NCBI GenBank assembly: GCA_025965195.1
Contig: JAOPXK010000081.1
Coordinates: 1-37,410 of the forward strand
Direction of reading: 5' to 3'
DNA length: 37,410 nucleotides
Source of the DNA: Marmoricola sp.
GTDB taxonomy: Bacteria; Actinomycetota; Actinomycetes; Propionibacteriales; Nocardioidaceae
Shown: positions 12,637 through 37,262 of the stretch, one piece after another
Layout: the number at the start of each line of letters is the position of its first letter
Position numbering within the stretch: the stretch's first letter is position 1
Notes under the pieces: model-generated
The model's database searches: none
The model's input: the letters and a program-made list of their open reading frames with translations, nothing else
Told to the model about the DNA's origin: nothing
Position numbers and translations under genes: made by a program

Positions 12637-13031
12637 GTGCGGATGGGCTGGCCGGGCGACCGCGTCGAAGGAAACTTCGCCGAGGAAGGTCCGGGCTCCA
12701 CAGGGCAAGGTGGTGGGTAACACCCACCCGAGGTGACTCGCGGGAAAGTGCCACAGAAAACAGACCGCCGCTCGCTGTTGAATGCGACAGCGAGCGGTAA
12801 GGGTGAAACGGTGGTGCAAGAGACCACCAGCGCGGCAGGTGACTGTCGCGGCTAGGCAAACCCCACCTGGAGCAAGATCAAACGCAAGCGTTCGAGGGCT
12901 GCTCGCCCGAGCTTGCGGGTAGATCGCCCGAGGGTGTCGGCAACGGCACCCCTAGATGGATGGTCGCCAACCGTGTCGTCGCGAGGCGGTACGGCGAACA
13001 GAACCCGGCCTATGAGCCAGCTCATCCGCAC
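12637..13031 (+). ncRNA. rnpB: RNase P RNA, bacterial type A
   Basis: This is the catalytic RNA of RNase P, which trims the 5' leader of tRNA precursors. The sequence follows the actinobacterial type A RNA closely: GAGGAAGGTCCGGGCTCCAC near 12680, the GGTGACTCGCGGGAAAGTGC block near 12730, CCACAGAAAACAGACCGCC, then GGTAAGGGTGAAACGGTG, GGCAAACCCCACC, and the 3' CAACGGC...AGATGGATGG block near 12950. Helix P1 pairs 12637-12652 with 13016-13031, with one G.U pair. There is no protein gene here; open frames crossing it are chance. Its last 28 bases are the attachment sequence of the island that follows, so its native downstream flank is now about 24 kb away. Confidence 0.95.
13004..13031 (+). other. 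attL: rnpB 3' end, left attachment repeat of the island
   Basis: A 28-bp sequence beginning CCCGGCCTATGAGCCAGC is repeated at 37235-37262 with a single mismatch (T at 13022, C at 37253). A shared CTCTGAC follows both copies after 5-6 bases. The copy here completes rnpB and lies 20 bases from the integrase remnant. Confidence 0.85.
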
Positions 13032-13051
13032 TGGGCCTCTGACCTGGGCGT

Positions 13052-13546
13052 TTACGAATTCGGAGGGGTCTCAGTCCGCAGAGAGTCCGCAAGATTCAGC
13101 AGAACGAGATCGACCGCTTGCCGGGTTCGGTCTGCGGAGTCCGGCCACAGGTGCGAGTACGTGTCGAGGGTCTCTGACGCGGAGCCGCGGCCAAGTCGGG
13201 CCTGAACGGTCTTTACCGATTCGCCGTGCCGGATCAGGAGACTTGCGTAGTAGTGCCGTAGCGCGTGGAAGCCAGTCCCGGCCGGTAGACCCGCTGCCTT
13301 GGCGACCGGTCGCCAGATGTGGCCGAACCTCCGCCGGGTCCAGTGCTCCTCGTCGTGAGTGAACACCAGACCGGCGAAATCGCTAGCCTTCGACGCGGGG
13401 AACGTCTTCAGGCGTGCCTCCAGAGCATCGACGACGACCTGGGGGAGCGGGATGGTCCGGACGCTCGCCTTCGTCTTCGGAGGCCCGTACGACGCGCCGT
13501 GACCCGGAACGGTCAGGAGCTGTCGGTCGACCGACAATGTGCGACG
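13052..13546 (-). pseudogene. Tyrosine integrase, C-terminal catalytic remnant
   Basis: About 165 residues of an actinobacterial phage-type tyrosine recombinase remain. Visible are the beta-hairpin lysine region PPKTKASVRTIPLP, the HALRHYYASLL box (His-x-x-Arg) and the nucleophile tyrosine in ETLDTYSHLWPDS. Family resemblance begins at RRTLSVDRQLL near 13546. Upstream in this frame the sequence no longer looks like an integrase, and a stop occurs near 13617, so the arm-binding and core-binding domains and the box I arginine are absent. The usual LGHxS histidine is arginine here (ARLGRGSAS). A full enzyme has around 370-400 residues. It ends 20 bases from attL, as expected for the element's own integrase. 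I expect it to be inactive. Confidence 0.85.
13073..13094 (+). repeat. Tandem integrase arm-site-like repeats, left end
   Basis: Two adjacent 11-base units, AGTCCGCAGAG (13073-13083) and AGTCCGCAAGA (13084-13094), match two perfect AGTCCGCAAGA units at 37109-37130 in the same orientation. They lie within the 3' end of the integrase remnant, encoding part of its LADSLRT tail. Tandem short repeats near both attachment sites are typical of arm-type binding sites for tyrosine integrases; that role is inferred. Confidence 0.55.
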
Positions 13547-13861
13547 GAGAGCAGTTGGGGCCGGTTCGATGTAGGCAACCGCCGCCGGCCGGCAGCTTCT
13601 TATCCCTGATCACACCCGGTCTACGCGACTCGCGGCCGGGCTAGCGAACAGCCCGCAACGGGCTGACCTCGACCCGCCCGATCGCGTAGTGCATGAGGTG
13701 TGTGGCAGTTCGTTGTTGGAGCGCAGTGAGGCGACTTCTTCGCGGTCGCTGTCCAGTCGTTGGTCTGCCGGGTGCTTGGCAGGGATGACTGAACTTCGGA
13801 TCGGAGGAACCAATGGGCTGCGAACGTCGAAGGCACCCAAGAGCCCGGCGACAGGCGGCTG
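13547..13861. other. Non-coding or decayed stretch
   Basis: No gene can be supported between the integrase remnant and the monooxygenase remnant. Several frames are open, but none has recognisable motifs or a start with a ribosome binding site. A perfect 7-bp hairpin CAGCCCG-CAA-CGGGCTG lies at 13649-13665. The stretch reads as scrambled former coding DNA. Confidence 0.5.
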
Positions 13862-14003
13862 CGGCGAGGATCGGTGACGTCTTGTCGTCGAGAGTTCATT
13901 CGAGATCGGGCGCCTCGAACCGACCTGCACCCCGTCCGAGCTGGAGATTGCGAACGGGCGGCATCCGCGCTGGCGAAGCTGGCCGAACCGGTTTGGCCTG
14001 ACT
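13862..14003 (+). pseudogene. Degenerate 3'-end fragment of a FAD monooxygenase gene
   Basis: The sequence aligns by eye with the last ~135 bases of the intact monooxygenase gene at the other end of the island (36866-36996). The first ~50 bases, including TTGTCGTCGAGAG and the CGAGATCGG-CGCCTCGA block, are near-identical. The middle differs and carries a net two-base length change, and GCGCTGGCGAAGCTGGCCGAACC is exact apart from its flanks. The reading frame is broken, no upstream part of the gene is present, and no product is expected. Confidence 0.7.
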
Positions 14004-14045
14004 TCGGTCTCGCCACCATCCGGAGCCGCGTGCGCCGACGCCCAG

Positions 14046-14588
14046 TCAGCCGACTGCGTTGCCGTCGATCAAAACGAAGGCGATGACGCACGGCTCATCC
14101 GAGCGGTTGGACCAGATGTGCCTGGTCCCGCGCTGGACAAGAGCATCTCCGGCTGAGAGCAGTGTCTCCTGCGCGTCGAGTACAGCCCAGATCTCGCCGC
14201 TCAGGACGATGCAGTAGTCGATGGAGGGGGTGGCGTGTATCTGCCTGCGGGCGATCTCCTCGCCCTCCGCGCCCGGAGCTCGCCAGACTGAATCCGGCGG
14301 GAACTCGACGGTACGGAAGATCGAGCCGTTCGCTGGCGGGGCAACGGGCAAGGGATCCACGGGTAGATCAATGGCTGGGCCGTCGTTGACGGCCGGTGTC
14401 TCCATCGTGCGCCACAGCTGAGTGACGACGAACTGATCGGTGTTCGCCTGACAGGTCACGTGGGGACTCACGTCGTCGATGGCAATGACGGACTGTCCGT
14501 GCTCGTCGAGACCGGTGACGACCCGCCTGATCTTGCGGGTCGTCGGCGCAGGTGTGAGGTCCAGCGACGTCACGAGATTCTCGGCCAT
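14046..14588 (-). CDS. Cupin-domain protein
   Basis: A 180-residue single-domain cupin with the beta-barrel in its C-terminal half: SIDYCIVLSGEIWAVLD followed by LLSAGDALVQRGTRHIWSNRS and CVIAFVLID, the two conserved cupin motifs. The first motif has no HxH pair where metal-binding cupins usually carry it, so metal-dependent catalysis is doubtful; a binding or isomerase role is possible. ATG 14588 has a GGAGA about six bases upstream. An upstream frame extension into the CocE gene is rejected. It follows the CocE-type hydrolase gene by 67 bases on the same strand, so the two are likely co-transcribed. Function in the pathway is unknown. Confidence 0.85.
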   Translation of the reverse strand: MAENLVTSLDLTPAPTTRKIRRVVTGLDEHGQSVIAIDDVSPHVTCQANTDQFVVTQLWRTMETPAVNDGPAIDLPVDPLPVAPPANGSIFRTVEFPPDSVWRAPGAEGEEIARRQIHATPSIDYCIVLSGEIWAVLDAQETLLSAGDALVQRGTRHIWSNRSDEPCVIAFVLIDGNAVG

Positions 14589-14655
14589 GGCTTCTCCGTT
14601 TCGGTGTTTCGTAGGTTCGTGTTGGGACACGTATCGAGCAGGACCGTGGTCCAGC

Positions 14656-16464
14656 TCAGGCGTCGCTCGAGCTCGGCGCCGGCACCTGCGGAATGACCGG
14701 CAGTAGCACGTGCGACGGGTACGCCGGGTTGTGAAAGATGTTGTGGAGCGTCGTACGGGAGCTGCAGAGGTGGTACGGGACGTACTCGACATCGGTAGCA
14801 CCGGCAACCCCGGTGGGCCGGTCCATGCTGGCTATCTCGACACAGATGCGGTGTCCAGCACGGAATAGGTTCGCCGTGGCCAGGATCTCGATGTTGTACT
14901 CGGTGACCTCGCCCGGAACAACGGGCGCCGCGGCCTCTCTAGTCAGTTGGTGGAACGGCTTCCACGCGGTGCTTCGCTCGGTGTCGAGCGCACGGTTGGA
15001 AGCCTTCAGCCACCCTCGGGTCAGCTCTCGCTCATGCAGATCGGTCGGTACTTCGAACTCGCCTTCGCGGGCGCTGCGGACCGACGGATCCGGCCCCACG
15101 TCCTTGAGGATGACCATCCAGTTGGTGTCCTCCTGGTCGATCGAGGCCCAGAGCTTCAGGCTCGAGGGCCCCGCGATCAGCACGTCGTGGGGGAGCGGGT
15201 CTGTCATGAACCGCAGCTTGGCAACCGAGCGGGTGTGCGTGAGCGGCATCTGGACGAAGGAGTCCGGGGGGATCAGATCATCGGAGGACCCTGGGGTGAA
15301 CTCCTGGCTCCGCAGTCGTTCCCAGCTCGTCAGATAGAGCTTGGTCCACTCGGTCTCCGGTAGCGGCCAGTCAGTGCCGGTGCGCCACTCGTTGGCGCCG
15401 CTGACCCAGTACTTCACCGGAGGCTCGTCGAGGATGCCGGTGTCGATCCCCTTCAACCAGTGGTCGTACCAGCGAACGATCTCGTGGTGCAGGCCGTGGA
15501 ACGGTCGCTCCAGGTGGGCGTGGCTCAGGAAGAGCAGCTTCTTGGGGATGTCCTCGAGGTGCCGCCAGTAGGTCTGGGCTCCCTGCAGGTGCGTCTTGTA
15601 GGTGTAGCCGTACCAGCCCGCTCCTGTGTAGACAGGGATCTTGATGTTCTTGAACTCAGCCTCGCTGCGTTCGACCGTTCCTGCCTCCTCGAACGGATTG
15701 ATCAAGGTCTCGAAGACGCCTGGCATGTGCTGGCCCTTCATGCTGAGCACGTTGAGGATATGTCCGTACATCGCGTAGTCGGGGTTGGCCATCGCAGCGC
15801 GCCACAGCTCCTGACGGGCCTCTGACAGCTCTGGAGGCAAGCCTTTGTCCTGGTGCATGACGTTGAAGTGCCCGACCAGGTAGCGGAAGAGACTCAGCAC
15901 GCCCCCGGGGTGCTCCTCGCGGAACCCGCCGAGCGTGCCGTAGGCGCCACGCGGGTCGTAGGGAAAGATCGCCTTCAGGGCCGGCGGGCCCTGGCGCGCG
16001 ACGTGCATCTGCTCGGCTCCGAAGCCCGAGATGCCGATCATGCCGACGTCGCCGTTGCACCACGGTTGCTGGGCGATCCACTCGATCAGGTCGTAGGAGT
16101 CGAACTCGCGCGAGCCACCTCCCTCGGACTTGCCGATGCCGCGCGGCATGCTCACGACGTGTACGTAGCCGCGCGAGGTGATGAATCGCGTGTCGCCGGC
16201 CTCGGTGGCCCCAATCCATAGCGGTGACCACGCCGGTTGCGGAGGCAGGCTAGTTGCGTCAGGTGTCGCCAGCTCCTTGTTGTAGATCGCGAAGGCCAAC
16301 AGGACGGGAAGAGGCTCGTCGGTATCCGGGCGGTAGACGTCCGCACACAGTCGTGTGCCGTCGCGCATCGTCACGTAGACATCGGTCTCGGCAATCAGGC
16401 CCGAGTGGGTGGCCTTGCTGCGGTACTGGCTGGGAAGTTCCGGGTTCGGTGCGAGCTCGCCCAT
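14656..16464 (-). CDS. CocE/NonD family hydrolase (X-Pro dipeptidyl-peptidase S15-like)
   Basis: A 602-residue alpha/beta hydrolase of the CocE/NonD type, enzymes that hydrolyse esters or amides of small molecules. The N-terminal domain begins DVYVTMRDGTRLCADVYRP (residues 28-46), the nucleophile is Ser146 in GMIGISGFGAE, and the RGIGKSEG strand-turn is at 108-115. The C-terminal jelly-roll domain (about 380-590) includes YNIEILATANLFRAGHRICVEIAS. At the position where CocE enzymes usually read GGWYD, this protein reads GAGWYGY, so the expected acid residue is not obvious. There is no signal peptide, so it acts in the cytoplasm on an imported substrate. GAGGAG about six bases upstream supports ATG 16464. 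It is divergent from the ABC importer operon. Confidence 0.92.
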   Translation of the reverse strand: MGELAPNPELPSQYRSKATHSGLIAETDVYVTMRDGTRLCADVYRPDTDEPLPVLLAFAIYNKELATPDATSLPPQPAWSPLWIGATEAGDTRFITSRGYVHVVSMPRGIGKSEGGGSREFDSYDLIEWIAQQPWCNGDVGMIGISGFGAEQMHVARQGPPALKAIFPYDPRGAYGTLGGFREEHPGGVLSLFRYLVGHFNVMHQDKGLPPELSEARQELWRAAMANPDYAMYGHILNVLSMKGQHMPGVFETLINPFEEAGTVERSEAEFKNIKIPVYTGAGWYGYTYKTHLQGAQTYWRHLEDIPKKLLFLSHAHLERPFHGLHHEIVRWYDHWLKGIDTGILDEPPVKYWVSGANEWRTGTDWPLPETEWTKLYLTSWERLRSQEFTPGSSDDLIPPDSFVQMPLTHTRSVAKLRFMTDPLPHDVLIAGPSSLKLWASIDQEDTNWMVILKDVGPDPSVRSAREGEFEVPTDLHERELTRGWLKASNRALDTERSTAWKPFHQLTREAAAPVVPGEVTEYNIEILATANLFRAGHRICVEIASMDRPTGVAGATDVEYVPYHLCSSRTTLHNIFHNPAYPSHVLLPVIPQVPAPSSSDA

Positions 16465-16534
16465 GGGCTGTCTCCTCGGGTTGATCAGTGCGCAACCGGT
16501 CTGTCAGGTGCGCGATCTGCGAAGCGTTGAAGGC

Positions 16535-16563
16535 AGCGAAACATGCAAAGAGTTACATGTCAA
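16535..16563 (-). promoter_or_regulatory. Candidate promoter for the CocE-cupin operon
   Basis: On the minus strand TTGACA (16563-16558), a 17-base spacer and TTCGCT (16540-16535) would start transcription about 65 bases before the CocE ATG. The -35 is perfect and the -10 is poor. The flanking DNA is distinctly AT-rich compared with the island average. Confidence 0.4.
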
Positions 16564-16635
16564 GCATAGAGAAACTGACCGATGGATGTTGAAAATCACG
16601 CTCACACGAGCCGCCGAAGTCGAAAAAGATGTAGA

Positions 16636-16681
16636 TATTGACATTCCACTATTGACGTGACTGCGATCACATGGATAACGT
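16636..16681 (+). promoter_or_regulatory. Candidate promoter region for the importer operon, with a TATTGAC direct repeat
   Basis: TATTGACA (16636-16643) and TATTGACG (16650-16657) form a direct repeat with a 14-base period. The second overlaps a -35-like TTGACG (16652-16657), which is 18 bases from TAACGT (16676-16681), a TAnnnT -10. Transcription from here would begin after ATG 16671, which supports the downstream start at 16731. Confidence 0.35.
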
Positions 16682-16730
16682 CCGGGAAGCCGCAGCCCAG
16701 TCCAGGGCGGCCCACGAACGGAGTCGCTTC

Positions 16731-25626: not shown

Positions 25627-25627
25627 G

Positions 25628-26341: not shown

Positions 26342-27307
26342 CTAGGCGGAGGCCATGGCGGTGAAGTCGACAACCTTCTTGCCGGGCCACACGTCTTGGG
26401 CGGACGTCGCGACCGAGGCACGGATCTCACCCATGGTCTCGACGCTCAGCGTCACCTGATCGCCGGGAACGAGCCACGGGTACTCGTTCTGGGAGTTCCG
26501 GATGGAGAGCTCGAGGATGCATCCGCCCTGGCAGGTTCCGCTGCCAACGATCGAGCCGGCTTCGACTCTCGAGCTCCACGACGAGTAGGAGATCAGCTCC
26601 TCCATGGACCAGTACGCCGACGTCCACCGGTCACCCCCGTAGCGGCGCCCGTTGACCGTTGACGTCATCTGCAGGTCGTACCCGTTTCCCTGGCGCCGGC
26701 TCTCGATCTCGTCAGGGGTGACGAAGACCGGGCCGAGGGAGGACCCGAAGTCCTTGCCCTTGAACGGGCCCAGGCGACCGTCCATCTCACGGAACTGCAG
26801 GTCGCGCGCCGACCAGTCGCTGAGGATCACGAACCCTGCGACGTACCCGGCCGCCTGTTCGGGGGTGACCGAGACGGCGTCCCGGCCCATGACAGCGGCA
26901 ACCTCGAGCTCGAAGTCCATGTTGACGCAGCCGCCGGGGATCTCGATCGCATCGCGGGGGCCGCGGATGGTTGCTGCGTTGCTGAAGTAGCCGATCGGCT
27001 GCTCGTACCAGACGTCCGGGCCGCGCTCCATGCCCTGCATCCGCCACGCCGGCAGCACGTGCTCCTCGAAGATCATGAAGTCCCGCATGGCCACCGGCTC
27101 CACCGGCTTGAGGAGCTGAAGGCTCTCGAAGTCGTGCTCGCTCGCCGGATTCGCGAGGATCTCCTCGCCAAGGCCGTGCAGCGCCTCTCCGTCGTCGCCG
27201 AAGTACGGCTCGAGTGCGGTGGCGGTGGCGGCGAGGTCGACGACGTCGTCATCTCGAACCACTCCGATCCGTGGCCCGTTCGGTGTCTGTGCCTTGACGA
27301 AACGCAT
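26342..27307 (-). CDS. Fumarylacetoacetate hydrolase family protein
   Basis: A 321-residue FAH-fold enzyme; the family hydrolyses or decarboxylates acylpyruvates and related 2,4-dioxo acids in a metal-dependent way. The metal ligands are in DFELEVAAVMG (Asp131, Glu133, Glu135) and SDWSARDLQ (Asp164); KGKDFGSSLGPVFV (near 183-196) is the family signature. A GGAGG just upstream supports ATG 27307. It is the last gene of a minus-strand operon with the second ABC importer, 51 bases after the permease. The nature of the acyl group is unknown. With the aldolase in the other operon it suggests cleavage of an oxo-acid intermediate to pyruvate-type products. Confidence 0.93.
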   Translation of the reverse strand: MRFVKAQTPNGPRIGVVRDDDVVDLAATATALEPYFGDDGEALHGLGEEILANPASEHDFESLQLLKPVEPVAMRDFMIFEEHVLPAWRMQGMERGPDVWYEQPIGYFSNAATIRGPRDAIEIPGGCVNMDFELEVAAVMGRDAVSVTPEQAAGYVAGFVILSDWSARDLQFREMDGRLGPFKGKDFGSSLGPVFVTPDEIESRRQGNGYDLQMTSTVNGRRYGGDRWTSAYWSMEELISYSSWSSRVEAGSIVGSGTCQGGCILELSIRNSQNEYPWLVPGDQVTLSVETMGEIRASVATSAQDVWPGKKVVDFTAMASA

Positions 27308-27358
27308 GCTTCCTCCAGTGGAATTGTTGGAACGACAGGTGGGGTGATCCGGGACCGG

Positions 27359-28477
27359 CTACGCGCGTTGCGTCCGGTTGCGTACGACGGAGGCGACTGT
27401 CACGGCGACGACCAGGCCGGCTCCGTAGAAGGCGTCCTGGACCCAACCGGTGTAGCCGAGGAGCTGGAGGCCGAGGATCCCGGTCTCCAGGAAGTAGATG
27501 CCGAGCAGCGTGCCCATCGGGTTGAACTGGCCGGGCAGGACGATCGCGGTTCCGAGGAAGACCGCGGCGAGAGCAGGCAGCAGGTAGCTCGACGACGCGG
27601 TGGGGTCGAAACCGCCGACGGTGGCCACCAGGAGGAGGCCGGCCATGCCGGCGACGAGACTGGCGGCGACGTAGCTCCCGGCACGGATCCGGTCGACGCT
27701 GATACCCGCGAGCCGGGCGACCTCGCGGTTCGCCCCGACGAACACGATGTGCCGCCCCAGCGGCGTCCACGTCAGCACGTAGGCGAACCCGATGCACAGT
27801 GCCAACCCGAAGTAGAACGAGAGCGGCAGCCCGAGGACGTTGTGCAGCGCCAGGTTCGAGAACGTCTGGTCGGAGACCGACACGATCGTCGAGGAGGAGA
27901 TCAGCTCGGCCAGACCGAGGTAGAGGCTCGCCGTACCGAGCGTGACCACGAGCGATGGCACCCCGAGCTTCACGATGAAGAACGCGTTGACCAGACCGCA
28001 GCCGAGCGAGGCCAGCAGGGCGATCGCACACGCTGCGGCGATGTTCATGTGATGCAACGTGGTCAGCACCGGGACGATGGTCGCCGAGAGCCCCATGACG
28101 CTGGCGAAGGACAGATCGAACTCGCCGACCACGAACGTGCACAGTGCTGCGACGGCCAGGAACAACAGCGCAGACTGTGAGCCGAAGATCGCCTGCACGG
28201 TCGAGACGCTGAGGAACTTGTCCGGCATGATCGCCCCGTAGATGCCGGCCATCACGAGCCAGACGCCGATCAGCGCGTAGCGCGAACCGATCGAGGTGAC
28301 CCGGTCCCGCAGTGTCGGCGCAGGCGAGCGCCCGCCGGTCGGGTCGTCCGCCACCGGCGCTTGCTCCGCAGTCGTACCGTCGATGCCGGGAAGGTCCGGC
28401 TCCTGGACGGGTGAGTCGAAACCGTTCACGGTGAACTCCCATTCCTGGGCGTGGTTGCTCTGCTCGGACAACGTCAT
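27359..28477 (-). CDS. ABC importer permease of the second Rbs-type system
   Basis: A 372-residue membrane permease of the RbsC class. A long polar N-terminal tail (1-68, rich in proline and acidic residues) precedes the first membrane span at YALIGVWLVMAGIYG. The family motif FVVGEFDLSFASVMGLSA is intact near residue 120, and the coupling loop LGRHIVFVGANREVARLAGISVDRIRAG lies near 250-280. The ATG overlaps the ATPase stop by four bases (ATGA). It belongs to the operon reading SBP, ATPase, permease, FAH-family enzyme. Relative to the first permease the N-terminal tail is longer and the GEFDLS motif is canonical. Confidence 0.9.
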   Translation of the reverse strand: MTLSEQSNHAQEWEFTVNGFDSPVQEPDLPGIDGTTAEQAPVADDPTGGRSPAPTLRDRVTSIGSRYALIGVWLVMAGIYGAIMPDKFLSVSTVQAIFGSQSALLFLAVAALCTFVVGEFDLSFASVMGLSATIVPVLTTLHHMNIAAACAIALLASLGCGLVNAFFIVKLGVPSLVVTLGTASLYLGLAELISSSTIVSVSDQTFSNLALHNVLGLPLSFYFGLALCIGFAYVLTWTPLGRHIVFVGANREVARLAGISVDRIRAGSYVAASLVAGMAGLLLVATVGGFDPTASSSYLLPALAAVFLGTAIVLPGQFNPMGTLLGIYFLETGILGLQLLGYTGWVQDAFYGAGLVVAVTVASVVRNRTQRA

Positions 28478-30018
28478 GAGGGGCTCCCTGAGGGTTGGAG
28501 TTCGACCGCGTAGATCTGGTCGATGAGGCCGTCCGGCGTGGTGTCGGAGGTCTCGACTGCGCCCGCAGCGGCGCTGTAGATCAGGACCCGGTCGCAGGCT
28601 GCGGAAAGGTCCTCGGTCTCGCTGCTGACCAAGATCACGGCCATGCCGTTGTCGGCTGCTCGACGCAGCGCGCGGAGGATGTCCTGACGGGCGCCGACGT
28701 CGACCGCTTGCGTGGGTTCGTGGAGAACTAGCACGGTCGGGCCAACGGCCAACCACTTGGCGAGGAGCACCTTCTGCTGGTTCCCCCCGCTGAGCTGCTT
28801 TACCAAGGTCGAGGGTGTCCTGGGTCGGATGCCGAGGTCGCCGACGGCTGCTTCGGCATCCTGGCGTTGCCAGGTGCGCCCGACGAACCAGCGATGCCCG
28901 CGTTTTCGCAGACCCGGCAGGCTGATGTTGTCGCGCATGCTGAGATCGAACGCGAGCCCGTCCCGATCGCGACGCTCCGGCACCAGGACGATGCCTGCTC
29001 GTAGGCAGCCGACGACCCCGGCTTTGGTGAGATCCATGGATCCTGCGGGCGTCCGTATCGTTCCGCCGGCTGCACGCTGAGCACCAGTGAGCAGGTAGGG
29101 CAGTTCTTCGTACCCGTTGCCGGGCAGGCCTGTGATGCCAAGGATCTCGCCGCCGGCGAGCGAGAACGCGACGTCCTTCACCTGCTTGCCGGTGAGGCCG
29201 TTCACCGTGACGGTCGGAGCCTTCGGAACGGGTGGCTTCGACGCGCGGGTGACGGTTTGCATCACGGCGCCGCCGAGCATGCGCCGCGCGATCTCCTCCT
29301 CGCTGAGGTCGGCCGTCCTCATTCCTGAGGCTGCCAGCTGCCCGTCGCGCAGGATCGAGATTCGGTTCGTGACGGACATCAGCTCGGTGAGGTTGTGGCT
29401 GATCATGACTGCGGCGCTGCCGTCGTCGGTGATGCGGCGAAGCATCGCGTGGACCCGTGAGAGGTCATCGCCGCTGAGCGCGCGAGTCGACTCATCAAGG
29501 ATGACTAGGCCGGCTCCCTCGGTGTGGTCCCGCATGGCGCGTGCGATCGCCACCTCAGCCCGTTCAGGAGCACTCAAGCTTGCGACCAGGCGATTCGGCT
29601 CGAGCGCGACCCCCAGGCGGTCGAGCGTGCGGGCGGTGAGCCGGTCCCTCTCAGCGCGATCGATGCGTCCCATCACCCGTGTGGTGGGGAAGCCGCCGAC
29701 GCAGATGTTCTCGGCTACGGTGAGCTGATCGAGTAGTCCGAGATCCTGATGAACCACTGCGACACCCGCGGCCCTGACTTCGGGCCAGCGCACCGGCAGC
29801 CTGACGCGTTCGCCGTTGACCCGGTACTCGGCACCGGAGTCCGGGGTGTAGAGCCCGGTCAGGATCTTGATGAGCGTGGACTTTCCCGAGCCGTTCTGGC
29901 CGGCGAGGCCGTGGATCTCGCCGGCCAGAACGGAGAGCTCGACGTTGGCGAGCACGCGGACCGACCCGAAGGTCTTGTCCAGCGAGCGCACCTCCAGACG
30001 AGCATCGGTCGATGCCAT
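28474..30018 (-). CDS. Tandem ABC ATPase of the second Rbs-type importer
   Basis: A 514-residue double ATPase. Domain 1 has a normal Walker A GQNGSGKST (40-48), a weak signature SLSAPERAEVAIARA and Walker B LVILDESTRALSG, with Ser where Pro is usual. Domain 2 has the usual degenerate Walker A GLPGNGYEE, a canonical signature KQLSGGNQQKVLLAKWL, and a Walker B that reads VLVLHEPTQAVDV, with His in place of the magnesium-coordinating Asp. ATG 30018 has GGGGAG about ten bases upstream; an alternative ATG at 30036 would overlap the binding-protein gene. It is positioned two bases after the substrate-binding protein gene. Confidence 0.9.
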   Translation of the reverse strand: MASTDARLEVRSLDKTFGSVRVLANVELSVLAGEIHGLAGQNGSGKSTLIKILTGLYTPDSGAEYRVNGERVRLPVRWPEVRAAGVAVVHQDLGLLDQLTVAENICVGGFPTTRVMGRIDRAERDRLTARTLDRLGVALEPNRLVASLSAPERAEVAIARAMRDHTEGAGLVILDESTRALSGDDLSRVHAMLRRITDDGSAAVMISHNLTELMSVTNRISILRDGQLAASGMRTADLSEEEIARRMLGGAVMQTVTRASKPPVPKAPTVTVNGLTGKQVKDVAFSLAGGEILGITGLPGNGYEELPYLLTGAQRAAGGTIRTPAGSMDLTKAGVVGCLRAGIVLVPERRDRDGLAFDLSMRDNISLPGLRKRGHRWFVGRTWQRQDAEAAVGDLGIRPRTPSTLVKQLSGGNQQKVLLAKWLAVGPTVLVLHEPTQAVDVGARQDILRALRRAADNGMAVILVSSETEDLSAACDRVLIYSAAAGAVETSDTTPDGLIDQIYAVELQPSGSPS

Positions 30019-30020
30019 GG

Positions 30021-31205
30021 TCAGGACACTCCCCATGCGGTCATGAAGGCCTGCTCGTAGGCGTCGGAGCCGTACCAGTCGTTGCTGGCGTAGGCCTCTG
30101 GCGTCAGGCTCAGGTCGCCGACGTTGGATTTGTCGAAGACGCGCATCACGCCGACCCCTGTGACGGGCAACTGGCCCACCATCATCCGCACGACGCCGTC
30201 GACGAACTGCCACCCGAGGTAGGTAGCGCTGAGCCCCACGTCGACGAACTGGACCTGGCTCGCCTTGATCCGCTGCATGGAGTCGAGGCCGCCGTTGGTC
30301 GAAGCGAGCTTGACCTTGTTGGTGAAGCCGGCGGACTGGATTCCCGAGACCGCACTGGCGGCTGCGGCATCGAGCTCGACCAGGACGTACTTGGTATCCG
30401 GGTGCGAGATCAGCGCCGCGCTCACCTGAGAGGGGACCTTGGCCAAGCTGGCGGTGTTGTAGTCAATCTCGGTGAAGCTGCACCCGGGGCAGTTGTCGGC
30501 GAAGAACTTCTTCGAGTAAGCCGCGCCGGCGAGCGTCTGTGGTGAGTCCGTGACACCGACGAAGAGGACCTTCGCCTTGCCCTTGCTGTCGACGATCAAT
30601 GACTCGGCAGCGAGGCGCTGGAGATCCTCGATCGACGGAGTTGTGTCATCGAATGCCAGCCCGGGCGAGTCCGCCTTTCCGCTGTCGGAAGCCTCGCCCG
30701 CGACCAGGACCGGGATGTGGTGGCTCACCAGGTTCTCGAACGCCGTGGGCACCAGCTTGTAGTCGACATAGCCGGTCACGACTCCGTCGGCACCCTGGGT
30801 CTGAGCCTGGTTGAGGCACGACGCGACAGTGGTCGGCAGGAACTTGCCGTCGCACACGTGGAGGGTGATACCAAGCTTGTCCAGGGCGCCCTTCATGCCC
30901 ACGCCGAACGAGTTCAGAATCGGTACGGCCGAGCCGAGGGGGACGTACCAGACCGTCTTGCCTTTCAGGGCACTCAACCCGGCGACCGGCTTGATGGCCG
31001 AGTAGCTCGAGACCTCGGCCGTGAACTTGGCGAGATCGGCTTGAGCCGAGCTGATCGCACTGCTGCTCGTCGTACCGCCGCCTCCAGAGGTGCCGGCGTT
31101 CGTCGAGCTGCTGCCACAGGCAGAGAGCGCGAGGATCGCCAGAGCTATGACGCCGACAACCAGCGGGCGGGTGGGAGTTCGTGAAGCTCGAATCTGGTGC
31201 GTCAT
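30021..31205 (-). CDS. Substrate-binding lipoprotein of the second Rbs-type ABC importer
   Basis: A 394-residue lipoprotein with signal peptide PLVVGVIALAILALSAC and lipidated Cys30, then a low-complexity Gly/Ser/Thr linker. The first lobe begins at GKTVWYVPLGSAVPILNSFG, and TQGADGVVTGYVDYKLVP, LLVDSKGKAKVLFVGV-type strands and NKVKLASTNGGLDSMQRI follow, all typical of type 1 sugar-binding-protein-like folds. GGAGG nine bases upstream fixes ATG 31205; a longer frame to 31316 would run through the promoter. It heads the operon SBP, ATPase, permease, FAH-family enzyme, divergent from the GntR regulator gene. Confidence 0.92.
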   Translation of the reverse strand: MTHQIRASRTPTRPLVVGVIALAILALSACGSSSTNAGTSGGGGTTSSSAISSAQADLAKFTAEVSSYSAIKPVAGLSALKGKTVWYVPLGSAVPILNSFGVGMKGALDKLGITLHVCDGKFLPTTVASCLNQAQTQGADGVVTGYVDYKLVPTAFENLVSHHIPVLVAGEASDSGKADSPGLAFDDTTPSIEDLQRLAAESLIVDSKGKAKVLFVGVTDSPQTLAGAAYSKKFFADNCPGCSFTEIDYNTASLAKVPSQVSAALISHPDTKYVLVELDAAAASAVSGIQSAGFTNKVKLASTNGGLDSMQRIKASQVQFVDVGLSATYLGWQFVDGVVRMMVGQLPVTGVGVMRVFDKSNVGDLSLTPEAYASNDWYGSDAYEQAFMTAWGVS

Positions 31206-31262
31206 CGCAGAGCGCCTCCGTGTGAGTGGTGAGCACCCGCGATTTCGGATCGTCATCCCGGG

Positions 31263-31275
31263 TCGTTTGAAACGA
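31263..31275. promoter_or_regulatory. Short palindrome at the -10/start region of the importer promoter
   Basis: TCGTTT-G-AAACGA is a perfect 6-bp inverted repeat with a one-base centre. It touches the proposed -10 at 31275-31280 and covers the expected transcription start, a classic repressor position. Binding is inferred. Confidence 0.35.
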
Positions 31276-31303
31276 GTGTGAGAACCAGCACATTCGATGT
31301 CAA
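31275..31303 (-). promoter_or_regulatory. Promoter of the second importer / FAH operon
   Basis: On the minus strand a perfect -35 TTGACA (31303-31298) is followed by a 17-base spacer and CACACT (31280-31275). Transcription would begin about 65 bases before the binding-protein ATG. Confidence 0.6.
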
Positions 31304-31304
31304 G

Positions 31305-31323
31305 GATTTTCGACAAGAAAATC
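31305..31323. promoter_or_regulatory. Candidate operator of the GntR regulator
   Basis: GATTTTC-N5-GAAAATC is a perfect 7-bp inverted repeat directly upstream of the -35 at 31303. It lies between the divergent importer operon and the GntR gene, where an autoregulatory site would be expected. The size and AT-rich arms suit a GntR dimer. Confidence 0.5.
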
Positions 31324-31414
31324 GATTCTGATTAAAAAAGACGCTATGCAGCACCACAATCGTTTAGCGCGTGATACGTTCACGGTCCTGGAATCCCGGT
31401 CTCGAGGAGCGTTG

Positions 31415-32134
31415 ATGCGAGAGCAAGCAGCTGGTGCCCGCAGCCTGTCGCGGGCAGTGTTCGCCGACGTAAGGGCAGACATCTTGGCGGGCGTCTACGC
31501 GCCGGGTTCCAAGCTGAGTCCGCGTGCCATTGCGACCAAGGCGGATGTCAGCCTTTCCGTGGTGCGTGAGGCACTTACCCGGCTTGCGGAGCAGGGCCTC
31601 GTCAACGCCGCGCCCCAGCTGGGGTTCTCTGTGGTGACTCTCGATCTCGACGACGTCCGGGACATCTCCACGGTCCGGATCGTGATCGAGGGCGCGGCTT
31701 TCAAGGACGCGATCGAGCACGCCGACATTGAGTACGAGACTCGCGTCCTGGCTGCCCACCACAGGCTGGTGCGGACCCAGATGTGGGAGGACGAAACAAG
31801 TCGGACGGTCCGAGAAGAGTGGTCGATTGCGCACGCCCAGTTCCACAGTGCGCTACTGAGCGCCTCGACAAGCCCGAGGTTGCGGGAACTTGCCGAAGGA
31901 CTTCGCGAAACCGCCGAGCTCTACCGACGTTGGTCCGGAACCCTGGCTGTCGACCAGCCCGAGCGCGACATCCCCGCGGAACACGAGGCCCTGATGCGCG
32001 CCGCGCTCGACCGACGGTCCGACCTCGCCCACGAGCTGATCGGCGACCACATCAACAAGACCACCGAGCTACTCGCCGGCTACGTCGAGACCCATCCGCT
32101 CGAAGTGGCAGCCTTGAACGGAGAGCAACCATGA
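31415..32134 (+). CDS. GntR family transcriptional regulator, FadR-type with FCD domain
   Basis: A 239-residue DNA-binding regulator. The winged helix (residues 12-75) reads LSRAVFADVRADILAGVYAPGSKLSPRAIATKADVSLSVVREALTRLAEQGLV (given here in parts: it starts at residue 11 and ends at 63), with the usual VSLSVVREAL recognition helix. The all-helical FCD ligand domain (about 80-225) has DVRDISTVRIVIEG, FHSALLSAS and HEALMRAALDR, including likely metal-binding histidines. GAGGAG five bases upstream supports ATG 31415. It is divergent from the second importer operon and overlaps the metallo-hydrolase gene by four bases (ATGA). It is probably the local repressor sensing the substrate or an intermediate. 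Confidence 0.92.
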   Translation: MREQAAGARSLSRAVFADVRADILAGVYAPGSKLSPRAIATKADVSLSVVREALTRLAEQGLVNAAPQLGFSVVTLDLDDVRDISTVRIVIEGAAFKDAIEHADIEYETRVLAAHHRLVRTQMWEDETSRTVREEWSIAHAQFHSALLSASTSPRLRELAEGLRETAELYRRWSGTLAVDQPERDIPAEHEALMRAALDRRSDLAHELIGDHINKTTELLAGYVETHPLEVAALNGEQP

Positions 32135-33066
32135 GAGTGAGTCCGCACGACCATCCCGACCTAGGTCCAGGAGCTCTCGTCGAAGTTGCCGAGCGCGTTT
32201 TCGCCTATGTCCAGCCCGACGGCTCGTGGTGGATCAACAACGCCGGGTTCGTCGTTGGTGAGTCTTCGATCGTGTGCATCGACGCGTGCTCGACAGAGCG
32301 GAGAACCCGCGCGTTCCGCGAGCAGATGAGGGCGACCAGGGACGTTCCAGTCTCCAGCCTGTTGAATACGCATCACCACGGCGACCACACCTTCGGCAAC
32401 TCGTTCATCGATGCGGCGACGATCATCGGTCACGAGAACTGCCGCACTGAGGTCACCAATGCTGGTCTGCCATCCAACGTGGGGATCTGGGACCCCGTCG
32501 ATTGGGGAGACCTCGAGCTTGCCCCGCCGAACATCACGTTCGCCGATCGCCTCTCCTTGTGGTCGGACGAGTCCGTCATCGAGATGAGCTACGTCGGTCA
32601 GCCGGCACATACGACCAACGACAGCCTGGTCTGGCTGCCCGAGGAGAAGGTGCTCTTCTGCGGGGACCTTCTCTTCAACGGAGGCACACCGTTCCTCCTC
32701 ATGGGCTCTGTCGTCGGCGCTATCGACGTGCTAACCAACGTGGTGGCCCCAATCCCAGCCGAGACGATCGTCTCCGGGCACGGGGCGCCCTGTGGCGCTG
32801 AGCTGATCTCGACGACGATCAGGTACCTCGAGTTCGTACTCGCGACCGCGAGAGCCGGACACGCTGCCGGCCTGACCCCGTTGGAAGTGGCTCGTGACGC
32901 CGATCTCGGCGAGTACGCCGGGTGGCTCGACCACGAACGGATCGTCGGAAATCTTCATCGTGCCTACCACGACCTGGACGACGAAGCCGCCGACGTCGAC
33001 CTCTTCGGCGCCCTCGGCGACATGATCTCGTACAACGGCGGCAAGCCGTTGTCGTGCTACGCGTGA
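32131..33066 (+). CDS. Metallo-beta-lactamase-fold hydrolase
   Basis: A 311-residue MBL-fold enzyme binding two metal ions. The ligand motif HHHGDH is at residues 81-86, a third His in GQPAHTTND, the bridging Asp in VLFCGDLLF and a C-terminal His in IVSGHGAPCG. The fold suggests hydrolysis of an ester, lactone or thioester; no glyoxalase II or lactamase signature beyond the core is visible. It starts within the GntR stop (ATGA) and is followed after nine bases by the second CoA-transferase pair, so the four genes form one operon. A lactone or CoA-thioester substrate would fit the neighbourhood, but this is inference. Confidence 0.9.
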   Translation: MRVSPHDHPDLGPGALVEVAERVFAYVQPDGSWWINNAGFVVGESSIVCIDACSTERRTRAFREQMRATRDVPVSSLLNTHHHGDHTFGNSFIDAATIIGHENCRTEVTNAGLPSNVGIWDPVDWGDLELAPPNITFADRLSLWSDESVIEMSYVGQPAHTTNDSLVWLPEEKVLFCGDLLFNGGTPFLLMGSVVGAIDVLTNVVAPIPAETIVSGHGAPCGAELISTTIRYLEFVLATARAGHAAGLTPLEVARDADLGEYAGWLDHERIVGNLHRAYHDLDDEAADVDLFGALGDMISYNGGKPLSCYA

Positions 33067-33075
33067 GGCTCGCAC

Positions 33076-33918
33076 ATGGACAAAGTGATGAGCACGGCTG
33101 CGCAAGCAGTCGCAGACATCGGGAACGGGTCCAGGCTGGCTGTCGGCGGCTTCGGACTCTGCGGAATCCCATCGGTCCTGATCGAGGCCGTCCTGGCATC
33201 TGGTGCGTCCGGGCTGCAGGCGGTGTCCAACAACTGCGGCGTCGATGACTGGGGACTCGGAATGCTGTTGCGCGAACACCGCCTGAGCAGGGTGATTGCG
33301 TCATACGTCGGGGAGAACAGAGAGTTCGCACGTCAGTTCCTCTCCGGGGAGCTCGAGGTCGAGCTGAACCCGCAGGGAACCCTGGCCGAACGGATGCGGG
33401 CCGGGGGATCCGGAATCGCCGCGTTCTACACCAGGACCGGAGTCGGCACGCAGGTTGCCGACGGCGGCCTTCCCTGGAGGTATGACGCGTCGGGCAACGT
33501 GATCAAGGCTTCGCCCGAGAAGCCCGTCATGGTCTTCGAGACGGATGCCGGCGAGTTGGAGTTTGTCCTGGAGGAGGCAATCACCGCCGACTTCGGACTG
33601 GTCCGGGCCTGGATGGGGGACCGGCACGGCAACCTCGTCTACCGCGACTCGGCGCGCAACTTCAACCCGCTGGCGGCGATGTGCGCACGCGTCACGATTG
33701 CCGAGGTCGAGCACCTCGTCGAGCCCGGTGAGATCGACCCGGCTGATGTGCACAGCCCTGGTGTCTTCGTGCAACGGGTGGTCGCGCTGACTCCCGAGCA
33801 GGCCGGGGACAAGAGGATCGAGAAGCGAACGGTGCGGACCCGCGAACGCGATGACCTGACAATGGTTCCTGAGGATTGGCGCGAGGCAATCCTGAGCGCG
33901 GTCGAGGTGCCAGCATGA
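33076..33918 (+). CDS. scoA: 3-oxoacid CoA-transferase, subunit A (second copy)
   Basis: A 280-residue alpha subunit, paralogous to the one at 24844-25626; about three quarters of positions look identical by eye. The motifs are [53 protein letters not shown] and [18 protein letters not shown]. It carries a C-terminal extension of about 20 residues ([18 protein letters not shown]) absent from the first copy. ATG 33076 matches the homologous start MDKV. Its stop overlaps the start of subunit B (ATGA). Two complete CoA-transferases within one island suggest two different acid substrates or a merger of two related clusters. Confidence 0.93.
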
Positions 33919-34571
33919 GCTGGACCCGTGAACAGATGGCCGCCCGTGCTGCCTCCGAGCTGACTGACGGCAGCTACGTGAACCTCGGCATCGGGCTGCC
34001 CACCCTCGTCCCGAACTATGTCGCCGACGACGTCGAGATGGTGCTGCAGTCCGAGAACGGCATCCTCGGTGTCGGTGCCTACCCGTTGGACGGCGAGGAG
34101 GACGCTGACCTGATCAACGCCGGCAAGGAGACCGTGACCTTGCGCCGCGGTGCGTCCTTCTTCGACTCCGCCACGTCCTTCGGGATGATCCGCGCCGGCA
34201 AGATCGACGCCGCCATCCTCGGTGCGATGCAGGTCTCAGCGGGAGGCGACATCGCCAACTGGATGATCCCCGGGAAGATGGTCAAGGGGATGGGCGGCGC
34301 GATGGACCTGGTTCACGGCGCCAAGCGGGTGATCGTGCTGATGGAGCACGTGTCCAAGGATGGCGAGTTCAAGGTCGTCAACGAGTGCTCGCTGCCCTAC
34401 ACCGGGCGCGGCGTCGTCCAGCGCATCATCACCGATCTGTGTGTCCTCGACGTCACCACGGACGGACTCGTCCTGGTCGAGCTCGCGCCGGGCGTGACCG
34501 AGGACGACGTACGCCGCCAGACCGAGCCCGCAATCCTGGTCGCACAGGCTGCGGTCGCCCAGACCCGTTAG
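33915..34571 (+). CDS. scoB: 3-oxoacid CoA-transferase, subunit B (second copy)
   Basis: A 218-residue beta subunit with the catalytic glutamate in [14 protein letters not shown], followed by [17 protein letters not shown] and [26 protein letters not shown]. It is closely similar to the subunit at 25628-26266 along the whole length. GAGGTG upstream and the four-base overlap with subunit A support ATG 33915. It ends the GntR operon. The DNA after its stop has no strong hairpin within 50 bases, so where the transcript ends is not clear. Confidence 0.93.
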
Positions 34572-34621
34572 CAGGATCGGACTGTTCTGGATTCCAGCGC
34601 GAACCGAGTATTTGTGTCTGA

Positions 34622-34935
34622 GTCAAACCAGAATTGAGGCCAGTGCCTCGAGTTTCTGTGCCGTACAAAGCCGCTTGTCCTCGGGCGCACGTTCGCGGTC
34701 AACGAAGCCACGGCGCTCGAGCTCGTTGATCACCGAGACCATGGTGGCCTTGTCGATCCGGAGTTTCTCCGCGACTGCGTGCTGTGCCCAAGGTCCCTTC
34801 TCACGGGACCGAAAGTGTCGAGTTGTGCCGCTGCTTCATACCCTCTGGTGCAAGCGCCGCGTCAATGTTGGCCTGAACCCATGAGGCGAGTTTGAAAAGC
34901 ACCAGGCCATCGTGGTGCGCTACCTGGGAGGGCAT
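34622..34935 (-). pseudogene. MarR family regulator, frameshifted
   Basis: Reading the minus strand from ATG 34935 gives MPSQVAHHDGLVLFKLASWV and then LAPEGMKQRHNSTLSVP before a stop near 34800. Shifting the frame at that point gives REKGPWAQHAVAEKLRIDK and then MVSVINELERRGFVDRERAPEDKRL, an unmistakable MarR winged helix. One frameshift near 34805 therefore splits the gene. It also ends early at 34622, with about 104 codons in total against the usual 140-160. Its target genes are unknown. Confidence 0.75.
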
Positions 34936-35117
34936 CGCCTCGGGAGGTTCAATGCCGAGCAGTCCTTTCATTGCCGCGTGTCCTCCAGGCGTTCGAGGTC
35001 ACTTGGCACCCCAAGCACGAGGCCACGCCAACCATCGACCTACAAACACCAACTAGTTCAGTTGTGCCACATTGTGGAGGTCAGACCGACGACCGGAACG
35101 AGGCAGAGCCGACTGTG
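34936..35117. other. Intergenic, nothing recognised
   Basis: No gene or RNA motif can be supported. A plus-strand open frame crosses it but has no start with a ribosome binding site and no family resemblance. Confidence 0.4.
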
Positions 35118-35717
35118 TCAATCGTTGCCGGCGTAGCGGCGCTCGTACTCGTCGAGTGCCCTGAGGGCGCGCTGGGCCCAGGCAATCTCCAGTTCGGCCC
35201 GCTCGATGTCACCGCCGTAAGCGAACTCTCGTAGGAGCAAGGTCATTGCCTGCTCCCGCGGCGACTTGCCGTTCAAGCGCTTCTGCACGCGATCGTGCTC
35301 GCCGTTCGCGATGGCGTCGCGGATCGGCCGCACCAGATCACGCCGATCCACGTAATGCCGCTGGTGTGCTTCCAGGTGTCGACGGATGTCGTCGACCGAG
35401 GCCAGGTCCGAGAAGATCAGCTGGAGCCGCTCCGGGTCACGGTTTGGTCGGTACTGAGGGTGGTCGGTCACCCAGGTGATCAAGGCTTCGACACCGGCCG
35501 GAGTGATCGAGTAGACCCGCTTCTCGAGCTTTTCGCCCACCGTTGTGAACGACCCGTCGATGAGCTTTGAGTCCTCGAGACGCTTGAGCTCGGGGTAGAT
35601 CTGGCTATGGGACGCGGACCAGAACCACCCGAGCCCGAGACCGAATTGACGCGTCAGGTCGTATCCAGACGATGGGCATGAAGATAGCGAGCCCAGAATC
35701 GCGAAGCGAAGTGACAC
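35118..35717 (-). CDS. PadR family transcriptional regulator
   Basis: A 199-residue regulator with the N-terminal PadR winged helix (1-85): VSLRFAILGSLSSCPSSGYDL, WSASHSQIYPELKRLEDSKLIDG and KRVYSITPAGVEALITWV. A helical dimerisation domain of the Vir_act_alpha_C type follows (about 90-185). PadR proteins commonly repress genes for phenolic or xenobiotic metabolism. GTG 35717 is chosen because the family begins MSLRFAILG; a longer frame adds 17 unrelated residues. No clear ribosome binding site is visible. It is divergent from the FAD monooxygenase gene and is its most likely regulator. Confidence 0.88.
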   Translation of the reverse strand: MSLRFAILGSLSSCPSSGYDLTRQFGLGLGWFWSASHSQIYPELKRLEDSKLIDGSFTTVGEKLEKRVYSITPAGVEALITWVTDHPQYRPNRDPERLQLIFSDLASVDDIRRHLEAHQRHYVDRRDLVRPIRDAIANGEHDRVQKRLNGKSPREQAMTLLLREFAYGGDIERAELEIAWAQRALRALDEYERRYAGND

Positions 35718-35773
35718 ATGTATGAACTTACACGAAATCAGGAGTCTGGTCGACAAACAATCAGGCAACTTCT

Positions 35774-35804
35774 AACATGTTCATATCGACATGATGTTCG
35801 TCGA
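35774..35804. promoter_or_regulatory. Candidate PadR operator region
   Basis: Two overlapping inverted repeats lie between the divergent PadR and monooxygenase genes: AACAT-N15-ATGTT (35774-35798) and TCGAC-N9-GTCGA (35786-35804). The stretch is AT-rich relative to its surroundings. The ATGT/ACAT-type arms resemble known PadR sites. Confidence 0.35.
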
Positions 35805-35886
35805 TCAATTGTCAAACACCTTCGGACAAACTCAGCGAGGCGTACATGTCCACAATGGTCGATGTGTGCTGGCGGGCGGAATGCGC

Positions 35887-36996
35887 ATGAGGGCTCTCGT
35901 CATCGGTGCCGGCATTGGAGGCATGTCCGCTGGGATTGCGTTGGATCGTCAGGACGTGGAGGTCGAGCTCGTCGAAATTGACCCTCTTTGGCGTGTCTAT
36001 GGGGCCGGGATCACCATCGCCGGCGCCACCCTTCGCGCGCTCGACGCCCTCGGCGTCTACGAGGCTGTCCAACGCGAGGGGTACGTGGGGAACGGAATCC
36101 GAGTTTGCTCGGTCGGAGGCGATCGTCTTTGGGACGTCCCGACACCGATGCCGGAAGACTCAGGCGTCGAAGGTTGTGGCGGAATTCTTAGGCCGGTCCT
36201 GCACCGGATTTTGTCGCGCAAGGTGCTTAGTGCAGGCATCCCGGTTCGGCTCGGTGTCTCGGTTGATAGCTTTCAACAAGACAGCGAAGGCGTCGACGTC
36301 ATCTTCAGCGACGGTAGCCAGGGCCGCTTCGACCTCGTCGTCGGCGCTGACGGGATCTACTCACGCACGCGACAGCAAATTTTTCCCGATGCACCGCTCC
36401 CGGAGTACACAGGACAAAGCGTCTGGCGAATCCTCACGGACCGGCCCACGGACGTGAATTGTCGGCACTACTTCCTGGGCGGCCCAGCCAAAGTTGGATT
36501 CACGCCGGTCTCGGCGACGCAGATGTACCTGTTCGTTGCCGAGAGAACGCAGCGGGAGGTCCGCAATGCCGATGAGTTGCACGACGACCTCGGCCGGCTC
36601 CTTGCGGACTACGGCGGCATCGTCGCCGAGATCCGGGACGCGGTAACGCCGGACACCGAGATCGTTTTCAGGCCACTCGAAATCTTCCGTCTGCCCGCAC
36701 CGTGGCATGTGGGACGGATCGTGCTCATCGGCGATGCGGCACACCCCACCACGCCACAGCTCGCGTCGGGCGCCGGCATCGCCGTGGAAGATGCCCTGGT
36801 CCTTTCCGAGGAAGTAGCCAGGTATGACTCCGTCCCCGAAGCGCTCACGGCGTTCCTCCTGCGACGTGAGGAACGGTGCCGCTTTGTCGTCGAGAGCTCG
36901 ATCGAGATCGGACGCCTCGAGCAGGCGGGTGCGTCGCCAGAGGAGCAGACTGCGATTGCAGCAGCCGCGCTGGCGAAGCTGGCCGAACCGATCTGA
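35887..36996 (+). CDS. FAD-dependent monooxygenase (salicylate hydroxylase/UbiH-like)
   Basis: A 369-residue class A flavoprotein hydroxylase, expected to use NAD(P)H and O2 to hydroxylate a small, often aromatic, compound. The FAD-binding GxGxxG is VIGAGIGGMSAGIAL (5-19), the DG motif lies in VVGADGIYSRTRQQ (151-164), and the GD motif is RIVLIGDAAHPTTPQLASGAGIAVEDA (starts near 279). ATG 35887 has GCGGA six to seven bases upstream; ATG 35881 is an alternative two codons longer. It is divergent from the PadR gene. A frameshifted copy of its last ~135 bases lies at the left end of the island (13862-14003). Confidence 0.9.
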   Translation: MRALVIGAGIGGMSAGIALDRQDVEVELVEIDPLWRVYGAGITIAGATLRALDALGVYEAVQREGYVGNGIRVCSVGGDRLWDVPTPMPEDSGVEGCGGILRPVLHRILSRKVLSAGIPVRLGVSVDSFQQDSEGVDVIFSDGSQGRFDLVVGADGIYSRTRQQIFPDAPLPEYTGQSVWRILTDRPTDVNCRHYFLGGPAKVGFTPVSATQMYLFVAERTQREVRNADELHDDLGRLLADYGGIVAEIRDAVTPDTEIVFRPLEIFRLPAPWHVGRIVLIGDAAHPTTPQLASGAGIAVEDALVLSEEVARYDSVPEALTAFLLRREERCRFVVESSIEIGRLEQAGASPEEQTAIAAAALAKLAEPI

Positions 36997-37234
36997 CCCG
37001 TGTCGAAGTGCCGATCCGTCCGGCCCTAGCTGACGTTCCGGACCGGGTTCTGGATCGGTCGTCTCTGTACGGAACTCGAGTGGACCTCAGGGAATTCGGG
37101 TCGTGGCCAGTCCGCAAGAAGTCCGCAAGACCTTCATAAATGACCATCGACCGCCGACGGCCAAATTGGCGTTTGTGCAGGTCAGAAGGCTATTGCCAAC
37201 TATGACCAGTGCCAGCATCTACGCGGGGTTGCTT
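36997..37234. other. Right-end intergenic region of the island
   Basis: No gene is supported. The region contains a stretch (37092-37130) that resembles the 3' end of the integrase gene: GAATTCGG, then 17 bases on from its start the AGTCCGCA unit, with the same spacing as at 13056-13094. Confidence 0.5.
37109..37130 (+). repeat. Tandem integrase arm-site-like repeats, right end
   Basis: Two perfect, adjacent AGTCCGCAAGA units (37109-37119 and 37120-37130), in the same orientation as the pair at 13073-13094. They lie 105 bases inside attR. Confidence 0.6.
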
Positions 37235-37262
37235 CCCGGCCTATGAGCCAGCCCATCCGCAC
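37235..37262 (+). other. attR: right attachment repeat, copy of the rnpB 3' end
   Basis: It is identical to 13004-13031 except for C at 37253. Its last 16 bases (37247-37262) are the exact reverse complement of the 5' strand of rnpB helix P1 (12637-12652), so it is a fully paired, presumably original, rnpB 3' end. Confidence 0.85.

Follow-up and report, generated by a model that had tools for sequence, protein, structure and literature searches.

The 3′ end of rnpB, the gene for the RNA of ribonuclease P (RNase P), appears to be the landing site of a 24-kb genomic island in Marmoricola sp. The stretch analyzed here (the window, 37,410 bp) is the entire contig C17 of a 3.97-Mb assembly in 200 contigs. 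The last 28 bases of rnpB recur in it 24.2 kb downstream of the gene, arm-like repeats lie at both ends of the intervening DNA, and what is left of a tyrosine recombinase gene adjoins the copy at rnpB. We estimate a probability of about 93% that the region entered by recombination between the rnpB 3′ end, acting as bacterial attachment site (attB), and the attachment site of an element (attP), and that it belongs to a family of actinobacterial elements that landed at rnpB repeatedly. The reaction would have been catalyzed by a tyrosine integrase that is now reduced to its C-terminal half. With a crossover inside the shared core, the copy brought by the element would rebuild the 3′ strand of helix P1 and leave rnpB whole, and the original 3′ end would be displaced to the far border. 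We infer the recombination, its crossover point and the entry of the cargo as a single unit, and, by comparison with relatives, the presumed mobility of the island. Because the integrase is truncated, the island would be unable to leave by itself.

Two cores and the arms of an element

The target gene is still whole. The full-length Rfam model RNaseP_bact_a matches at 12644-13028 on the plus strand (313 bits), and the ends of rnpB were set by the pairing of helix P1 (Table 1). The two 28-base cores are identical at 27 positions and differ solely by a T to C change at position 19. Every other site in the window has at least 8 mismatches to the repeat, and about 1e-9 such matches are expected by chance. 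A preliminary description of this DNA had reported the duplication with its single mismatch, as well as the outer border at the last base of the right core, and both stand; the start of the second copy is set at 37235, a small correction. The only tRNA detected in the window lies at 5301-5373, and the core sits in rnpB rather than in a tRNA or transfer-messenger RNA (tmRNA) gene.

Both copies can close helix P1. The 5′ strand of P1 forms 15 Watson-Crick pairs and one G-U pair with the adjacent copy (13016-13031), and 16 of 16 Watson-Crick pairs with the distant one (37247-37262), which also carries at core position 19 the C found at rnpB in congeners. The complete pairing and the shared C suggest that the original rnpB end is the one at the distant site and that the element brought the adjacent copy, in which case the crossover would fall before core position 19.

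Table 1. Positions of rnpB, the island ends and the cargo in the window
Feature	Position	Strand	Basis
rnpB, RNase P RNA gene (target, still whole)	12637-13031	+	Rfam model and P1 pairing
5′ strand of helix P1	12637-12652	+	pairs with both rnpB 3′ ends
Left core (attL), rnpB 3′ end, probably the element's copy	13004-13031	+	repeat and P1 pairing
CTCTGACCTG motif, conserved 3′ of rnpB in occupied relatives	13037-13046	+	
Tyrosine integrase remnant, C-terminal catalytic part	13052-13537	-	Pfam PF00589
Left tandem arm repeats	13073-13093	+	AGTCCGCANNAAGTCCGCAAG match
Degenerate copy of monooxygenase 3′ end	13866-13990	+	77% identity to 36868-36990
Cargo: cupin, CocE-type hydrolase, two ABC-transporter sets, aldolase, enoyl-CoA hydratase, two CoA-transferase pairs, FAA hydrolase, GntR and PadR regulators, FAD monooxygenase	14046-36996		
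Right tandem arm repeats, oriented as the left ones	37109-37129	+	AGTCCGCANNAAGTCCGCAAG match
CTCTGACCTG motif, inverted, one mismatch	37178-37187	-	
Right core (attR), proposed displaced rnpB 3′ end	37235-37262	+	repeat, assembly search, P1 pairing
Presumed chromosomal flank, end of a minus-strand gene	37263-37410		contig end

Duplication can yield short rnpB-like pieces, and the distant copy might be a broken duplicate of rnpB or a dispersed repeat unrelated to integration. We regard this as highly improbable. When a 417-base query containing the rnpB end was searched against the whole assembly, it matched at two places, which are the two cores, so the distant copy is not a dispersed repeat; a dispersed element unrelated to integrases, the outcome that the preliminary description had named as fatal to its proposal, is thereby contradicted. 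The distant copy moreover consists of the last 28 bases only and has arms in front of it, and the arrangement recurs in other genomes with each host's own rnpB end.

Site-specific integration is further indicated by the sequences next to the cores. The open reading frame (ORF) beside the left core matches Pfam Phage_integrase (PF00589) with an E-value of 3.8e-12 over profile positions 62-168 of 172, and so covers the catalytic part only. It aligns to residues 215-373 of the 380-residue integrase of the congener G005 at 73.6% identity, and no credible match to the first half of that protein was found upstream of the remnant. The tandem arm repeat AGTCCGCANNAAGTCCGCAAG, allowing three mismatches, has just two sites in the window, one at each end, against 0.02 expected. 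The preliminary description was thus right to place an integrase remnant at the first copy and arm-like repeats at both ends. Closer to the cores lies the motif CTCTGACCTG, which taken alone is no rarer than chance (six window matches with at most one mismatch versus 3.9 expected; an exact match is also present at 12613), so that only its position is informative.

Recurrent use of rnpB in Actinomycetota

We examined rnpB in 24 genomes of the genus. The rnpB core is followed by CTCTGACCT in nine of them, and a reversed-pattern control gave no match in the 24. Integrase homologues convergent with rnpB start 25-35 nt past the gene in G004, G005, G013, G017 and G020, and 239 nt past it in G011; the G013 and G020 homologues are fragmentary. 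The search for second cores, run in a first pass with the core of the window, was repeated with each host's own core over downstream stretches of up to 18.8 kb (1.4-1.6 kb in G001 and G022). Copies with at most three mismatches were found on the same contig in G005, G012 and the window and on another contig in G004, and in none of the 15 congeners without the motif. A complemented-core control gave no match at up to four mismatches in 342,458 positions. In G005 the two cores are 9.3 kb apart with a TrwC relaxase gene between them, and the elements of G004 and G011 encode an HTH_17 protein that we read as excisionase-like.

An empty site can be recognized for one of these elements. The sequence 3′ of the right core of G004 is 92.6% identical over 2483 nt to a G016 sequence that begins 6 nt past rnpB, and by this comparison G016 is the empty site of the G004 element. 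The end of an opposite-strand gene lies 22-29 nt past rnpB in G022 and G023; that of G022 matches Pfam Peptidase_M24, and we read the gene as map. Beside rnpB in G013 (L035), a transposase-like gene adjoins the integrase fragment, and an ALIL pseudoknot was detected on the contig of L035 and L173.

Related mobile elements occupy this site in many other soil actinobacteria, also outside the genus. Relatives of the G005 integrase (E ≤ 1e-40) occur in 117 of the 391 genomes of the order. Among the 20 best loci fetched with this search (L069-L088), eight contain RNase P RNA, and no tRNA or tmRNA was found in 28 loci of the integrase family. A looser motif pattern matched in 43 of the 391 genomes, of which 29 were judged by eye to be at rnpB and 14 not, and its reversed control matched in six genomes. 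When 20 regions of the order were fetched, a simple pattern found rnpB in 19; the gene it missed, in G049, was recovered with a covariance model and has an integrase about 135 bp away. Seven of the 19 out-of-genus loci carry a second core with at most three mismatches, at 10.5 kb from the first in G251, 2.4 kb in G285 (where the two are identical), 13.9 kb in G298, 11.2 kb in G247, 13.4 kb in G194, 9.6 kb in G199 and 11.5 kb in G085, so that elements in other hosts span 2.4-13.9 kb.

The layout of the right end is conserved among these elements. Right arms at about -127 and -116 from the core, together with an inverted motif near -55, are shared by the window, G005, G298, G247 and G194; in G199 and G085 the arms lie slightly further out and the exact motif is absent. 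The arm sequence varies from element to element (AGTCCGCA, ACTGYGGTC, ACTGTGCCCA, TGTGCACA), and the two ends of one element agree. In all 10 hosts compared, each copy of the core forms at least 13 consecutive pairs, G-U included, with the host's own P1 5′ strand, though that strand differs among hosts. On these 10 hosts we rejected a general rule by which the displaced copy would be the better fit to P1, as the better-fitting copy varies.

Across the phylum, a sample of 396 genomes gave five matches, the window and four others, at rnpB. A scan of named genomes returned 69 stretches, mostly from Nocardioides, Marmoricola, Aeromicrobium and Streptosporangiales; Nakamurella, Jatrophihabitans, Actinospica and Pseudonocardia contributed one each. 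Of these stretches, 62 gave a hit with the RNase P model (14/18, 16/18, 19/19 and 13/14 by batch), and 57 actinobacterial loci have the motif match at rnpB; this count leaves out L195, with its match 3.3 kb from rnpB, and L217, L221, L223 and L231, which lie outside Actinomycetota and whose matches are probably due to chance. In 22 of the 69 stretches, among which are the three seeds of the model used, an integrase ORF is encoded no more than 2.5 kb downstream; elsewhere among the named loci, the motif by itself is no proof of an element.

Two IMG/VR contigs carry the core between element arms or motifs and have no rnpB (L238 at ~11576-11620; L239 at ~7673-7715). These junctions look attP-like, as would be expected of an attP or a tandem junction, and L238 also carries phage tail genes. 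Altogether, the insertion at the rnpB 3′ end that the preliminary description had proposed is supported by its recurrence, by second copies matched to their hosts, by the conserved attachment-site layout and by the empty site for the G004 element in G016.

Core and motif also occur in L195, L169, L172, L181 and L182 at sites without an rnpB hit by the RNase P model; these may be right ends that were displaced, or junctions between elements in tandem.

Cargo and the assembly of the island

The Pfam families of the cargo include ABC transporters, CoA transferases, an FAA hydrolase, an HpcH/HpaI aldolase, an enoyl-CoA hydratase and an FAD monooxygenase. These family names point to the uptake and breakdown of carbon sources, and "catabolic", the earlier label for the island, is a fair one on that basis. 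A Pfam scan of 22 island ORFs found no relaxase, translocase, excisionase, replication or phage structural gene. Both island ends carry, in the same orientation, some 125 bp from the 3′ end of the monooxygenase gene, which is perhaps the scar of an earlier rearrangement.

The cargo need not have travelled as a unit. On one alternative reading the attachment sites are real, but a small rnpB element integrated on its own and most of the catabolic genes were added later, by recombination or by movement of insertion sequences; we find this alternative rather unlikely. Window positions 26359-33834 (7.5 kb) are 79% identical to and collinear with a stretch of G016:C11 away from rnpB, and are partly matched on contigs of G021 and G004, so a later insertion of chromosomal genes between the attachment sites is possible. 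The CoA-transferase genes have relatives across the genus, the other elements are shorter than this one, the doubled monooxygenase piece would fit such a history, and the G+C content of the island differs little from that of the left flank (65.2% versus 67.4%). Islands often carry genus-related cargo, however, so similarity of this kind does not decide, and the arms and core of the right end are laid out as in a single element. The island may be composite.

The two ends might instead derive from two neighboring elements that shared one arm type and between which a deletion joined the left end of the first to the right end of the second, an explanation to which we give little credence. Tandem arrays are suggested by several occupied loci where the integrase lies several kb from rnpB or where cores lie away from it, L195 among them, and AGTCCGCA arms are common to several elements. 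Against this, the window contains a single arm pair on each side and only two cores.

Several observations besides the collinear cargo weigh against integration of the island at rnpB or against its generality. On the right, the contig stops 148 bp beyond the repeat, and this flank, which the preliminary description expected directly after rnpB in relatives lacking the insert, has no DNA match in the 24 congener stretches, in which its 23-residue peptide tail finds short, weak matches only. The usual rnpB neighbor map is on contig C116 of the same assembly, 4.5 kb inside it, so its join to the window is unproven. The right flank of G005 matched only itself among the congener stretches. No second copy with at most three mismatches was found in five of the nine motif-positive genomes of the genus (G011, G013, G017, G020 and G021) or in 12 of the 19 out-of-genus loci. 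G015 (L044), which lacks the motif, has a four-mismatch copy about 605 bp after rnpB that may be the remains of another element. The copy beside rnpB pairs better with P1 than the other one in G004, G251 and G199. Finally, 47 of the 69 named stretches have no nearby integrase by the model used; in 18 of the 69 loci less than 1.5 kb of sequence follows rnpB, which often makes the absence of an integrase uninformative.

The integrase family and other integration sites

In a tree of 42 integrases, rnpB users are clustered and do not form one clade, with eight label changes against a shuffled mean of 14.4. The rnpB label of the tree undercounts, as loci such as L073 (G214), L074 (G194) and L076 (G271) lie 5-10 kb from a motif-bearing rnpB. 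Some relatives have another target. In L086, L087, L089 and L094 (~1450-1500) the integrase lies where a gene for nickel superoxide dismutase has its 3′ end, and the arm motif is similar, the dismutase gene being identified by a Sod_Ni match in L086 and L089 and as the same gene by sequence in L087 and L094. The target gene has thus switched between rnpB and nickel superoxide dismutase within one integrase family.

Orientation varies too. In G251 (L129) the integrase is at the right end and reversed, as it is in the viral contig L238, and both carry a doubled CTCTGACCTG motif, apparently the outcome of integration in reverse orientation. A near-palindrome in the core, which reads GGCCTACAGGCC in many hosts, could make the reverse orientation possible.

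We think it probable that rnpB is an established landing gene for this integrase lineage in Actinomycetota. Each integration would swap the 3′ strand of P1 and thereby require an element whose own strand fits the host; the near-palindromic core and symmetric arms would permit the opposite orientation, as in G251 and L238; and sister lineages would have taken up other targets, for instance the nickel superoxide dismutase gene, and kept the arm motif.

Genes for tRNAs and tmRNA are textbook landing sites. Like the islands of the Islander/TIGER type found there, the elements described here have a tyrosine integrase by an RNA gene and a structured-RNA 3′ end that is duplicated and rebuilt; they differ in that the target is rnpB, tRNA and tmRNA being absent from the 28 integrase-family loci. 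With actinomycete integrative and conjugative elements (AICEs) and integrative mobilizable elements they share actinobacterial hosts, and relatives of the island carry an integrase, an HTH_17 protein (G004 and G011) and, in G005, a TrwC relaxase, whereas the window island shows no relaxase among its scanned ORFs. The temperate phages Kukla and TripleJ (Arthrobacter) and corynephage 304L have integrases among the nearest in the phage collection, and one viral contig with an rnpB-type attP has tail genes; the 22 island ORFs scanned include no phage structural gene, and no phage or plasmid integrase exceeds about 36% identity. Mechanistically this is what tyrosine integrases are known to do; the new part is the target gene and its repeated use.

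That rnpB is seldom reported as a target, as the preliminary description held, agrees with the open full-text literature, where our searches turned up no account of integration at rnpB; most subscription papers lie outside that literature and priority is not established. The available part of the TIGER/Islander announcement sorts sites into tRNA/tmRNA, protein-coding and intergenic ones and contains neither "rnpB" nor "RNase P" (PMC12424338). A survey of AICEs places most elements with a tyrosine integrase in tRNA 3′ ends, and both terms are likewise absent from its main text as available (PMC3218068). No rnpB integration site is named in the accessible portions of these two papers or of PMC2516327, PMC8776855, PMC6582537, PMC12884075, PMC2705793, PMC10383233, PMC10763512, PMC5704250 and PMC10654092.

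Repeated use of an essential ribozyme, a universal structured RNA, in several actinobacterial orders would widen the tRNA/tmRNA rule, and it raises a testable question, namely whether the host range of an element is set by the fit of its P1 strand to the RNase P of the host. Tools limited to tRNA and tmRNA ends would miss rnpB islands. In practical terms, rnpB integrases could become tools for placing DNA in a gene that all these hosts share.

The CTCTGACCTG motif was also considered as being mainly a terminator. This was rejected, as strong hairpins are present in G004, G012, G285 and G204 and none in G005, G298, G247, G371 and G194; the window sequence at the motif folds at -22.4 kcal/mol without a simple hairpin form. 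Where the strong hairpin does occur, in G004 (L039), G012 (L037), G285 (L132) and G204 (L137), it is formed by the first bases of the element just after rnpB, and this predicted structure could replace the rnpB terminator.

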